This document shows, in pieces, positions 10,590-40,640 of a stretch of 64,000 bases of DNA (positions are counted from its first letter, which is position 1; every line of letters starts with the position of its first letter). The notes beneath the pieces were generated by a model. It made no database searches and was not told where the DNA came from. It saw only the letters and a program-made list of their open reading frames with translations. The translations under genes and the position numbers were made by a program. This DNA is from Rudanella paleaurantiibacter (lineage in GTDB: Bacteria > Bacteroidota > Bacteroidia > Cytophagales > Spirosomataceae): positions 248,001 to 312,000 of the forward strand of contig NZ_WELI01000002.1 of NCBI RefSeq assembly GCF_009184635.1, written 5' to 3'.

Positions 10590-10633
10590 GGGCCGGGCAA
10601 GTTTAGGCTTTAAGGGACAAATCGCACAAAAAC

Positions 10634-10890
10634 ATGAGTCATCTCGAATTTTCGAATTTTTGATGATTTTAAGCCCAAGTTCCTCCCTGGATGCCCCGTC
10701 AGGGGCCTAATATTGGTAGCTAACCGGGAACATAGACCCAATACCAGAGCCCCGAAGGGGCGTAACCCTAAACAAGTTACGCCCCTTCGGGGCTCTGGTA
10801 TTGGCGGGAGACATCTTTTCTACCAATATTCGGCCCCTAACGGGGCGTCGAGTCGAGGCCACTGCTACCCTAAAATTCGGGATGACTCAT
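10634..10890. repeat. Three-layer nested palindrome containing REP-like hairpins
   Basis: Outer arms: ATGAGTCATCTCGAATTTT (10634-10652) against its near-exact complement (10872-10890). Middle arms: hairpin GCCCCGTCAGGGGC plus tail ATATTGGTAG (10693-10719) against the mirrored copy with GCCCCTAACGGGGC (10820-10846). Inner arms: a perfect 29-bp pair (10738-10766 and 10776-10804) with a 9-nt loop, containing GCCCCGAAGGGGC. It fills the spacer between two convergent genes. The tail matches that of the REP-like repeats at 38977-39265. Confidence 0.85.
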
Positions 10891-37470: not shown

Positions 37471-38037
37471 ATGATACTGACCGAATCACCAGTTAAGCCC
37501 TTGCCTACCCACCTCAAAACGGTGGCTGAGTTTGAGCAGTGGGAGCGCGAATATGGCCACGATGGTAGCTATGAGTTTGTTCGCGGGCGGATTATTGAAA
37601 AAAAAGATGTGAAGCAGAATGAGTTCTTTTTGATTCGCTTTCTGACACGCCTTTTTGCGAAAACAGCCGCTTATGAACGGGGTGATGAGTTGACACCAGA
37701 GATGGATTCATACGTTGACAGTGTCCGCAAAAGACGCCCAGACCTTGCTTACTTTACGCTGGAACAGATTGAAGATACCCGAACGGGCAATCGGCAGAAG
37801 ACCCGATTTGCTATTGAAATTCTTTCGGATTCAGAATCGTACCAGGATGTTCTTGAAAAGGTGCAGGACTATTTCGATGCCGGTGCCGAATTGGTGTGGT
37901 ACGTTATTCCCGAACACAAAAAGATTACCGTCTATACTTCACCCGATTTTTCACAGGCCTACAAAGGCAGCGAGCTAATTTCGGCCGCCCCTGTTTTGCC
38001 TGATTTTCAATTTCGGGTCGATGAATTATTTGCATGA
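37471..38037 (+). CDS. Uma2 family (DUF820) putative restriction-fold nuclease
   Basis: 188 aa. The PD-(D/E)XK-like core is visible: RRPDLAYF (Asp), FAIEILSDSESYQDVLEKVQDYFDAGAELVWYVIPEHKKITVY (Glu-Ile-Leu-Ser, then the helix and strand with VW.V.P). The family is common in cyanobacteria and some Bacteroidota; its biological role is not established. Overlaps the NUDIX gene by 4 nt (ATGA), so the two are co-translated. A TATCTTTA box is 24 nt upstream. A run of eight A bases occurs at 37597-37605 region. Confidence 0.88.
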   Translation: MILTESPVKPLPTHLKTVAEFEQWEREYGHDGSYEFVRGRIIEKKDVKQNEFFLIRFLTRLFAKTAAYERGDELTPEMDSYVDSVRKRRPDLAYFTLEQIEDTRTGNRQKTRFAIEILSDSESYQDVLEKVQDYFDAGAELVWYVIPEHKKITVYTSPDFSQAYKGSELISAAPVLPDFQFRVDELFA

Positions 38038-38486
38038 AAGTACGACCATCGGCCCTGATTTGGCGCCACCGTGACACACAGCCCGAAGTTTTATTGATGC
38101 ACTACCGCTACGGCGAGGTCGATGTGCTGGCCTTACCCGGCGGCAACCCCGACCGGGGCGAAACCCTGCCGCAAACCGTAGCCCGCGAAGTACAGGAGGA
38201 ACTGGGTCTGACCGTAAGCGTCGGCGAGATGGTTATGGCGGGCGAAATGTTGCTCATGGAACGTGCCGACGATGTGCTCCACATTGTATTTGCTACCCGC
38301 GACGTGCAGGGCGAACCCCTGCTAAACCCCGCCGAAACGTCGGCGCTGGCTATCCGTTGGGTGGCTGTTTCGGACTTGCACACCCTGAACCTATATCCTA
38401 ATGTGGGCGAAGCGGTTCAACGCTGGTTCGCGTCGGGGGGTGATTTAGGGTACATTGGACGCATTGAACAGCGGTATTTTGGGTAA
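38034..38486 (+). CDS. NUDIX hydrolase
   Basis: 150 aa. The Nudix box is complete: GG-N-PDRGE-TLPQTVA-REVQEELGL (about 38-61, GX5EX7REUXEEXGU). The family hydrolyses nucleoside diphosphate derivatives; the substrate is unknown. Translationally coupled to the Uma2 gene. Confidence 0.92.
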   Translation: MKVRPSALIWRHRDTQPEVLLMHYRYGEVDVLALPGGNPDRGETLPQTVAREVQEELGLTVSVGEMVMAGEMLLMERADDVLHIVFATRDVQGEPLLNPAETSALAIRWVAVSDLHTLNLYPNVGEAVQRWFASGGDLGYIGRIEQRYFG

Positions 38487-38496
38487 TATTTTGTCT

Positions 38497-38956
38497 TCAG
38501 ACCAAAGATTTGAAGATGTACGGCTCCTCATAATCTATTCCAAACGCGTCCAGAAAACGACGATATTCTTCCAGAAAGGTACGTTTACGGTGATGCTCTT
38601 CCTGATTTTCAATATATCGAATCACGTCAGGTACTTGACTTTTACCATAAGAAAAGGCTCCGTATCCCTCTTGCCAGCTAAAGTGGGAGGTTGTTAGGTT
38701 GTTGTCGTTAATCCATTTTGAGGAGTCTTGTTTTAGGTGTTTCATGAGGTCTGATAGAGATTGCGTGGGCCGCATACCAATCAGTACATGAACATGGTCG
38801 GGCATCCCATTGATGGACAATAGTTTGTGGTCGTAGTGGCGGATAATACCCGTCATGTATTTGTATAGGTCATCTTTCCATTCAGGGGCGATTTGGGCTT
38901 GTCGGTATTTGCGCAAAGAAGAGCTGCAAATGGATTTGGGTGTAGGTGTTGGGCAT
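38497..38956 (-). pseudogene. REP-associated Y1 (IS200-like) transposase, frameshifted near the N-terminus
   Basis: The frame ending at 38497 gives a 139-aa body with the HUH motif GMPDHVHVLI, WQEGYGAFSYGKSQVPDVIRYIENQEEHHRKRTF (Tyr of the single-strand transferase), and LSDLMKHLKQDSSKWIND. Its first ATG is missing. In another frame, ATG 38956 starts MPNTYTQIHLQLFFA, the standard N-terminus of this family, which joins KYRQAQIAPEWKDDLYKY if about two bases are added at 38912-38915. So the gene is probably broken by a small deletion. REP-associated enzymes bind and cut hairpin repeats such as those directly upstream. Confidence 0.82.
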
Positions 38957-38976
38957 GGAAAAACGGTTTGCGTTGA

Positions 38977-39265
38977 TTACCAATATTGTGTCCCTACGGG
39001 ACGTATCGAGGTTACGGGTGTTTCGAGTGCTACCGATGTTGTGTCCCTACGGGACGTTAACGAACCAAATCGCGTCCCGTAGGGACACAACATTGGTAGA
39101 GAAGCGGATGCCTTCCCCCACCCCCTCCCGTCCCGTAGGGACACAATATCGGTAGAGAAGCGGATACCTTCTCCCACCCCCTCCCGTCCCGTAGGGACAC
39201 AACATTGGTAGCCAACAACGGCCAATTTTAGCGTCTAACGTCCCGTAGGGACATAACATTGGTAA
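38977..39265. repeat. Cluster of six REP-like palindromes
   Basis: Each 27-28-bp unit has the palindrome GTCCCGTAGGGAC, then ACAAYATYG and GTAG. Copies: minus orientation 38977-39004 and 39030-39056; plus orientation 39073-39099, 39129-39155, 39185-39211 and 39239-39265. Copies 3-5 repeat with a 56-bp period that includes a nearly identical 29-nt spacer. The first copy ends about 20 nt from the transposase ATG; the last lies inside the 3' end of the symporter gene. Confidence 0.92.
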
Positions 39266-40640
39266 CCAAACTCCCTACCAGCATGGCGGTTATACTGGCC
39301 AGCAAGCCCCAGATCATGGGCGGCAGGGTCTGGGTGTCGAGCAGGAGGCAAACCACCCAAACCAGCAGCCCACCCGCCATACTCGCCAGGCAGCCCATGA
39401 GGGTGGCCCGACGCCAGTAAATACCCGCCAACAAGGGTACAAACAACGACACCAGACTGAATGCCGACGACTCGCCGACCAGGTCGAAAATACTGACGTC
39501 GCGGGCAAGGCTCATCCAGACGCAGCTGGCCGTAATTACAACCACGGCCAGCCGGATAGTCAACAGCAGGGACTTGTCGCTCAGGTCGGGTTTCAAAAAC
39601 TTCACTACGTTTTCGCCAAAAACGGCCGCCGGGGCCAGAATTGCTCCGCTGGATACGCTCAAAATGGCCGAGGTAACAGCTCCAAAGAACAGAATCTGAA
39701 GCGCCAGATTACCGTGCTGCAACACCATGTTCGGAATCAGCAACTGCCGGTCCTGATCGGTAGCCATCGGTAAGTCGGGGTGCAGAAACTGCGCGGCCAG
39801 TCCAATAAACAGCGGAATCATGGCCACCGTGAGGTACAAACCCGACGCAATAAACGACGAGCGTACCGCCACCGACTCCGACTTGGCCGACATCACGCGC
39901 TGAAACACATCCTGCTGCGGCATCGAGCCCAGCCCGATGGTTATCCAGGCTGCTACGTATTCAACCACGCCGTGAAACGACCATTCGGGAGCAAAGCGCC
40001 AGAATTGGGGTTTACCAGCTGTCCGTTGCTGAATGGCTTCCCAGCCCCCCAACTCCTGCCAGAGTGGTACGGCTACAATCACCAGCGCCACCACAATCAC
40101 GGCATTGTGCAGAAAATCAGTCACCGAGATCGACCACATACCGCCCAGCAGTGTGTATACCATCACGATAGCCGCGCTGATGATAACACCATAGGCCTGA
40201 TCGATACCCGTAACTACTTTCAGGACGATTCCGATCGCAATAAACTGCGCGGCTATCCAGCTGAAGTACGACGGAATAACCAACAGAGCCGACAGTAACT
40301 CAGCCGACCGGCCAAACCGAATGCGGAAGTAATCCGAAAACGTGGTCAGATTGAGCCGATACAACGGTCGGGCCACCAGCAATCCCACCAGAAACAGGCA
40401 AAGCGCGGCCCCAAAGGGCTCTTCGATAACGGCCGGTATTCCGCCCTCCACAAACTTGGCCGGAGCACCCATAATGGTTTCGGAACCAAACCAGGTAGCA
40501 AACGTGACGGAGGCCGCCAACGCCAGCGGCAACCGCCGGCCGGCCAGCACAAAATCTTGCGCCGAATGGACGCGCCGGGCCGCCCAGGCCCCTACGGCAA
40601 TGTTGAGAAGGAGGTAGAGGGAAATGAAAAAGAGGAGCAT
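39228..40640 (-). CDS. Sodium:solute symporter family transporter
   Basis: 470 aa with about 13 hydrophobic segments from LLFFISLYLLLNIAVGAW to LASITAMLVGSLVT. Family marks: AQDFVLAGRRLPLALAASVTFATWFGSETIMGAPAKFVEGG, DFLHNAVIVVALVIVAVPL and GLGSMPQQDVFQRVMSAKSE. It moves a solute with Na+; the solute is not evident. ATG 40640 begins the first membrane helix; the frame is open to 40763. The last ten residues (NVMSLRDVRR) and the stop codon are encoded by a REP-like repeat, so the native C-terminus was probably replaced. Confidence 0.92.
   Translation of the reverse strand: MLLFFISLYLLLNIAVGAWAARRVHSAQDFVLAGRRLPLALAASVTFATWFGSETIMGAPAKFVEGGIPAVIEEPFGAALCLFLVGLLVARPLYRLNLTTFSDYFRIRFGRSAELLSALLVIPSYFSWIAAQFIAIGIVLKVVTGIDQAYGVIISAAIVMVYTLLGGMWSISVTDFLHNAVIVVALVIVAVPLWQELGGWEAIQQRTAGKPQFWRFAPEWSFHGVVEYVAAWITIGLGSMPQQDVFQRVMSAKSESVAVRSSFIASGLYLTVAMIPLFIGLAAQFLHPDLPMATDQDRQLLIPNMVLQHGNLALQILFFGAVTSAILSVSSGAILAPAAVFGENVVKFLKPDLSDKSLLLTIRLAVVVITASCVWMSLARDVSIFDLVGESSAFSLVSLFVPLLAGIYWRRATLMGCLASMAGGLLVWVVCLLLDTQTLPPMIWGLLASITAMLVGSLVTNVMSLRDVRR

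Follow-up and report, generated by a model that had tools for sequence, protein, structure and literature searches.

A frameshifted Y1 transposase gene and its short-hairpin family in Rudanella paleaurantiibacter: a probable decayed REPtron-like module

Analysis of a 64,000-nt stretch of the Rudanella paleaurantiibacter genome (hereafter, the window) revealed a frameshifted HUH (Y1) transposase gene with six short palindromes next to it. We consider it likely that this locus derives by decay from a REPtron-like module, i.e., a HUH transposase of TnpA-Y1 subclass 1.2 accompanied by its own family of short hairpins.

The palindrome GTCCCGTAGGGAC was found six times within window positions 38990-39252, four times on the (+) strand and twice on the (−) strand. 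Thus, the pattern count, together with Pfam, bears out the preliminary description of a transposase with six palindromes, two running one way and four the other. Read on its own strand, each unit comprises the GTCCCGTAGGGAC hairpin, an 8-nt spacer, and a pentameric tag, which is GGTAG in four units (sharing the 3′ end [CT]AA[CT]AT[CT]GGTAG) and GGTAA in the two outermost ones. Specifically, unit 1 (38977-39002, hairpin at 38990-39002, GGTAA) and unit 2 (39030-39055, hairpin at 39043-39055, GGTAG) lie on the (−) strand, while unit 3 (39074-39099, hairpin at 39074-39086), unit 4 (39130-39155), and unit 5 (39186-39211), all tagged GGTAG, and unit 6 (39240-39265, GGTAA) lie on the (+) strand. The unit nearest to the transposase start codon (ATG at 38956) has its tag ~20 nt and its hairpin ~33 nt away. 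At the other end, unit 6 overlaps the end of a symporter open reading frame (ORF) and provides its last residues, i.e., a new C-terminus. Across the 6.7-Mb genome, these six are the only exact copies of GTCCCGTAGGGAC, and the reversed control pattern gave none; allowing up to two mismatches still returned the six in the window, compared with a mean of 1.4 and a maximum of 4 in shuffled sequences. The preliminary description had named a lack of further copies in the genome as grounds for rejecting its reading, and literally the exact palindrome has no copy elsewhere; that test was too strict because relatives carry dispersed copies (see below).

The gene and its palindromes occupy a genome-specific segment (38485-39262) bordered by a NUDIX gene on one side and a sodium:solute symporter gene on the other. 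In a sister species of the same genus (G002), the gap between these two genes is 34 bp, versus 778 bp in the window, and the sequences on either side (window 38034-38484 and 39263-39700) are ~90% identical. Since G002 has no insert at this site, the transposase gene and repeats represent an insertion of ~778 bp. Its boundaries are approximate, as the 34-bp spacer of G002 is not recognizable in the window; the two sequences have in common only TAACCA, which in the window follows the last unit on its right side. A Uma2-family gene (putative endonuclease) is located two genes from the insertion, at 37471-38037.

The transposase gene spans 38497-38956 on the (−) strand, as judged by Pfam and by comparison with intact relatives. 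Its open frame is limited to 38497-38916(−), where a TTG start at 38916 yields a 139-aa protein that scores 95.9 bits against Pfam Y1_Tnp (cut-off 23). Base-by-base comparison with two intact relatives (L039 and L040, the latter from Spirosoma fluviale) places the true start at ATG 38956 and reveals the loss of two bases at ~38911, after codon 15. The lost N-terminus holds the first strand of the predicted HUH fold (residues 8-16), and because the frameshift removes this strand, the window copy is probably inactive, barring a sequencing error behind the frameshift. The host genome contains two divergent transposase genes of the subclass 1.2 type. The other one (L002 1383-1968, contig C26) has CAACCCCnnnGGGGTTG and a further hairpin on either side, and its palindromes form a family distinct from GTCCCGTAGGGAC in a mirror arrangement.

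To which branch of the Y1 enzymes does this protein belong? Alignment of the window protein with 43 relatives (alignment A1, 153 positions) showed DH(V/I)H, WQ, and Y---Q--HH to be common to all, with D54, H55, H57, and Y115 invariant among the 44 sequences and kept in the window copy, whose tyrosine motif reads Y-ENQEEHH. The protein scored 69.6 bits against NCBIfam NF033573 (IS200/IS605; cut-off 55) and 31.7 bits against REP_Tyr_transpos, below its cut-off of 80. Sequence and fold searches reached the ISDra2 and IS608 TnpA proteins and also the E. coli REP transposase; the predicted structure (pLDDT 93) found its best solved matches in IS608/ISDra2 TnpA, with E. coli TnpA-REP (4er8, rmsd 2.9) also among the matches. 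The model is a single chain, and the lower rmsd to TnpA-REP may reflect this because the active site of IS608 TnpA is assembled across a dimer (PMC5934647). TnpA-Y1 subclass 1.2 has been defined by DH[IV]H, WQ, and Y---Q--HH in proteins of ~150 aa and described as a branch next to the IS200 transposases that occurs in Bacteroidetes and Cyanobacteria at low copy number and without REP sequences, while class 2 RAYTs carry Y---NP (PMC6006769). By its motifs and length, the window protein fits subclass 1.2; the HUH motif and the single catalytic tyrosine are features it has in common with class 2 RAYTs. A plasmid search aimed at cyanobacterial members of the subclass yielded for the most part other IS200 transposases. 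Class 2 RAYT identity was rejected on the grounds of Y---Q--HH rather than Y---NP, the REP_Tyr_transpos score below cut-off, and a tag lying 3′ of the hairpin. The name RAYT, used in the preliminary description, therefore holds for the REPtron-like association of gene and palindromes but fails for the protein family (by profile and signature) and for the polarity of the tag.

We next considered the flanks of 80 transposase loci, a non-random sample comprising the closest relatives across Bacteroidota, in which GC-rich hairpins with GGTAG on their 3′ side were scanned for. Such units are associated with the genes: within 1 kb of them, there were 141 units in 151 kb, in comparison with 15 in 208 kb beyond 1.5 kb, 4.5 in shuffled flanks, and 29 for the opposite polarity. 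At least one unit was present at 53 of the 80 loci and none at the remaining 27; at loci lacking GGTAG, hairpins were often tagged TGTAG, AATAG, CGAGTAG, or TATAG instead. The geometry is fixed: of 317 hairpins oriented by their loop, 129 have TAG exactly at +10 downstream of the 5-bp stem, and any other single position accounts for at most 17; no TAG peak was found upstream of the stem among these 317 hairpins. In a phylum-wide search sample of 29 loci, which possibly shares species with the 80-locus set, TAG was located at +10 in 33 of 76 hairpins. Hairpins within 80 nt before the start codon, mostly with the loop GTA, were found at 32 of 77 loci, and hairpins within 80 nt after the stop codon, often with the loop TAC (i.e., inverted), at 47 of 77, with background stretches giving 6% in both cases. 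The consensus unit has a perfect 5-bp GC-rich stem, a 3-4-nt loop of the type GTA/GTTA, an 8-nt spacer (nnnATATn), and a pentamer ending in TAG, and tandem arrays contain up to eight units, with 22-30 nt from TAG to the next stem. The recurrence of this arrangement at most of the 80 loci supports the view that transposase and palindromes belong together.

Two variations on this layout were observed. A second form of the unit (in L042, L043, G078, G067, and G029) has 8 extra bases, GCGCAGCG, between the hairpin and GTCGGTAG, so that the spacing shows a further peak at about 16-18 nt. At another locus (L162; G101 C48:38674-39503), five unit copies beside the transposase gene repeat with an exact period of 201 bp, which suggests that a larger block was amplified in tandem.

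Stem and tag vary in concert and are private to individual enzymes. GTCGC and GCCGC stems go with TGTAG, the xxCCC-type stems of L066, L099, and G002b with AATAG, and most other stems with GGTAG. Transposase copies number from 1 to 8 per genome and are divergent rather than identical; the three paralogues of G002 have three hairpin families that differ in both stem and tag, and the two paralogues of the window's genome likewise have different hairpin families. A guide-like sequence 5′ of the hairpin that covaries with the tag was looked for among the relatives' units, and none was found.

Units also occur away from the gene. The unit pattern yielded 61 matches in 11 of 121 genomes of the family (one match for the reversed control); units are dispersed in G027, G101, and G078, and none is dispersed in the window's genome. 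In G027, G084, and G101, dispersed elements of 120-190 bp consist of two inverted halves without a transposase gene, a plan that resembles REPINs. When ten G027 dimer copies were aligned by their outer stems, conservation extended exactly 8 nt past the stem and then fell to background; the inner units carry a fixed GGTAG at stem + 8 nt, and the outer ends lack it. Four of the G027 dimers (the L151, L153, L156, and L157 sites) have no counterpart in the equivalent intergenic regions of congeners, a comparison at the level of presence or absence since the intergenic DNA is too diverged for base-level empty sites.

The window hosts another repeat with the same unit layout, a dispersed 261-bp element at 10630-10890 that has AAACATGAGTCATCCCGAATTTT as its inverted ends and a long hairpin at its center. 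It holds two inward-facing units with GCCCC stems (10693-10719 and 10820-10846), each a hairpin followed by 8 nt and GGTAG; the preliminary description had pointed out the shared tail. The element is present in ~19 copies in the window's genome and ~10 in G002, where many tags have decayed, and in none of the two other genomes of the genus, i.e., in 2 of 4. Because G002 lacks the element at 8 of 10 sites tested, it has moved since the two species split; no target-site duplication was evident in the copies and sites compared. Copies differ in the orientation of the central hairpin's loop (CTTGTTTAGG or, inverted, CCTAAACAAG), as though this segment could flip. The suggestion of a single enzyme lineage acting on both palindrome families found no support, as G002 has the 261-bp element and no match to the GTCCCGTAGGGAC..GGTAG unit; its own three transposases are accompanied by other stems and, where readable, other tags.

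We infer that the subclass 1.2 enzyme is the mover of the units, and its mode of binding and site of cleavage are proposed here by homology and from the layout of the units. By analogy with TnpA-REP and IS608 TnpA, an intact enzyme would bind the hairpin as single-stranded DNA, reading both stem and loop, and would cut one strand via a tyrosine link. Cutting and rejoining would most likely take place at the border between spacer and pentamer, a position suggested by the invariable length of the spacer (8 nt), the unchanging TAG, and the points at which the G027 dimers end. These reactions would copy or move units beside the gene and, on occasion, to other places in the form of inverted dimers. 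The pentamer could be the enzyme's tag, the cleavage site, or the pre-insertion target; two observations argue against it being simply an element end, namely that TAACCA is common to the window and the empty site of G002 and that GGTAG is lacking on the outsides of the G027 dimers.

Three other explanations were weighed against the REPtron-like module. The locus could be a decayed IS200-type insertion sequence whose hairpins are the usual left and right ends, increased in number through insertion in tandem, as the above-cut-off IS200/IS605 score, the IS608 and ISDra2 proteins as best matches in fold and sequence, the insertion with its empty site in G002, and the resemblance of hairpin, short spacer, and short conserved site to an IS200 end would all be consistent with. 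However, the few copies per genome (1 to 8) diverge from one another instead of being identical, the hairpins flanking the gene are mutually inverted (GTA upstream, TAC downstream), whereas both hairpins of IS608 form on one strand (PMC5934647), and units disperse without the gene; subclass 1.2 has been set apart from IS200 on such grounds (PMC6006769). We therefore regard this explanation as unlikely.

Rather less probable still is that the hairpins are non-autonomous elements of another transposase, e.g., the mover of the 261-bp element, with the Y1 gene as a passenger. Although that element is mobile, its inverted ends are longer, and its units have the GGTAG layout too, it is restricted to 2 of 4 genomes of the genus, and among the neighbors of the units across Bacteroidota, only the Y1 gene is constant. 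As for transcription terminators or RNA elements that came to lie near the gene by chance, the position of many hairpins directly after a stop codon or before a start codon, where RNA structures could act, is the point in favor; tandem arrays of up to eight units, the fixed 8-nt spacer with its TAG pentamer, the lack of a consistent T run, the variation of the stem between paralogues, and the confinement of the unit excess to ~1 kb around the gene make this explanation barely credible.

The REPtron-like module favored here can be placed among known systems. With RAYT/TnpA-REP REPtrons, it shares a HUH Y1 enzyme at single-copy scale flanked by short hairpins with GTAG-like tags (Nunvar 2010, PMC2817692; Di Nocera 2013, PMC3733652; Corneloup 2021, PMC8266576), as well as inverted pairs, a private palindrome family for each enzyme, and, in a relative, REPIN-like dispersed dimers. 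In contrast to those systems, the protein belongs to the Y-Q-HH rather than the Y-NP branch, the tag follows the hairpin on its 3′ side after an 8-nt spacer, whereas in canonical REPs the 5′ foot of the hairpin bears GTAG (GT[AG]G), and copy numbers are low. The motifs, the length of ~150 aa, the occurrence in Bacteroidota, and the low, divergent copy number agree with subclass 1.2 (Quentin 2018, PMC6006769), which was published as lacking REPs, whereas hairpin units flank most of the members examined here. Compared with IS200/IS605 elements (IS608 and ISDra2), the fold, the catalytic motifs, hairpins as likely recognition elements, and a short site at fixed distance are alike; unlike in IS608 and ISDra2, where they lie on the same strand, the flanking hairpins are inverted, units multiply without the gene, and no guide pairing was found.

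Tentatively, and with somewhat less than even confidence, we propose that, with subclass 1.2, a REP-type system arose from IS200-like transposases a second time and independently; its enzymes would have been domesticated throughout Bacteroidota, each with private hairpins and a 3′ tag, in convergence with the class 2 RAYT/REP system of Proteobacteria. The palindrome itself had no match in the open-licence literature, to which the combination of subclass 1.2 enzymes with private hairpin families also appears to be new. The hairpin association corrects the published account of subclass 1.2 as lacking REP sequences (PMC6006769) and touches on the open question of how REP elements originate and move. 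A second enzyme branch with hairpins of opposite polarity would, if true, offer a comparative set of numerous naturally occurring stem/tag pairs, three of them within a single genome, with which to ask what part of a hairpin the enzyme reads and at which point it cuts, and units of this kind would explain many small repeats in Bacteroidota genomes.
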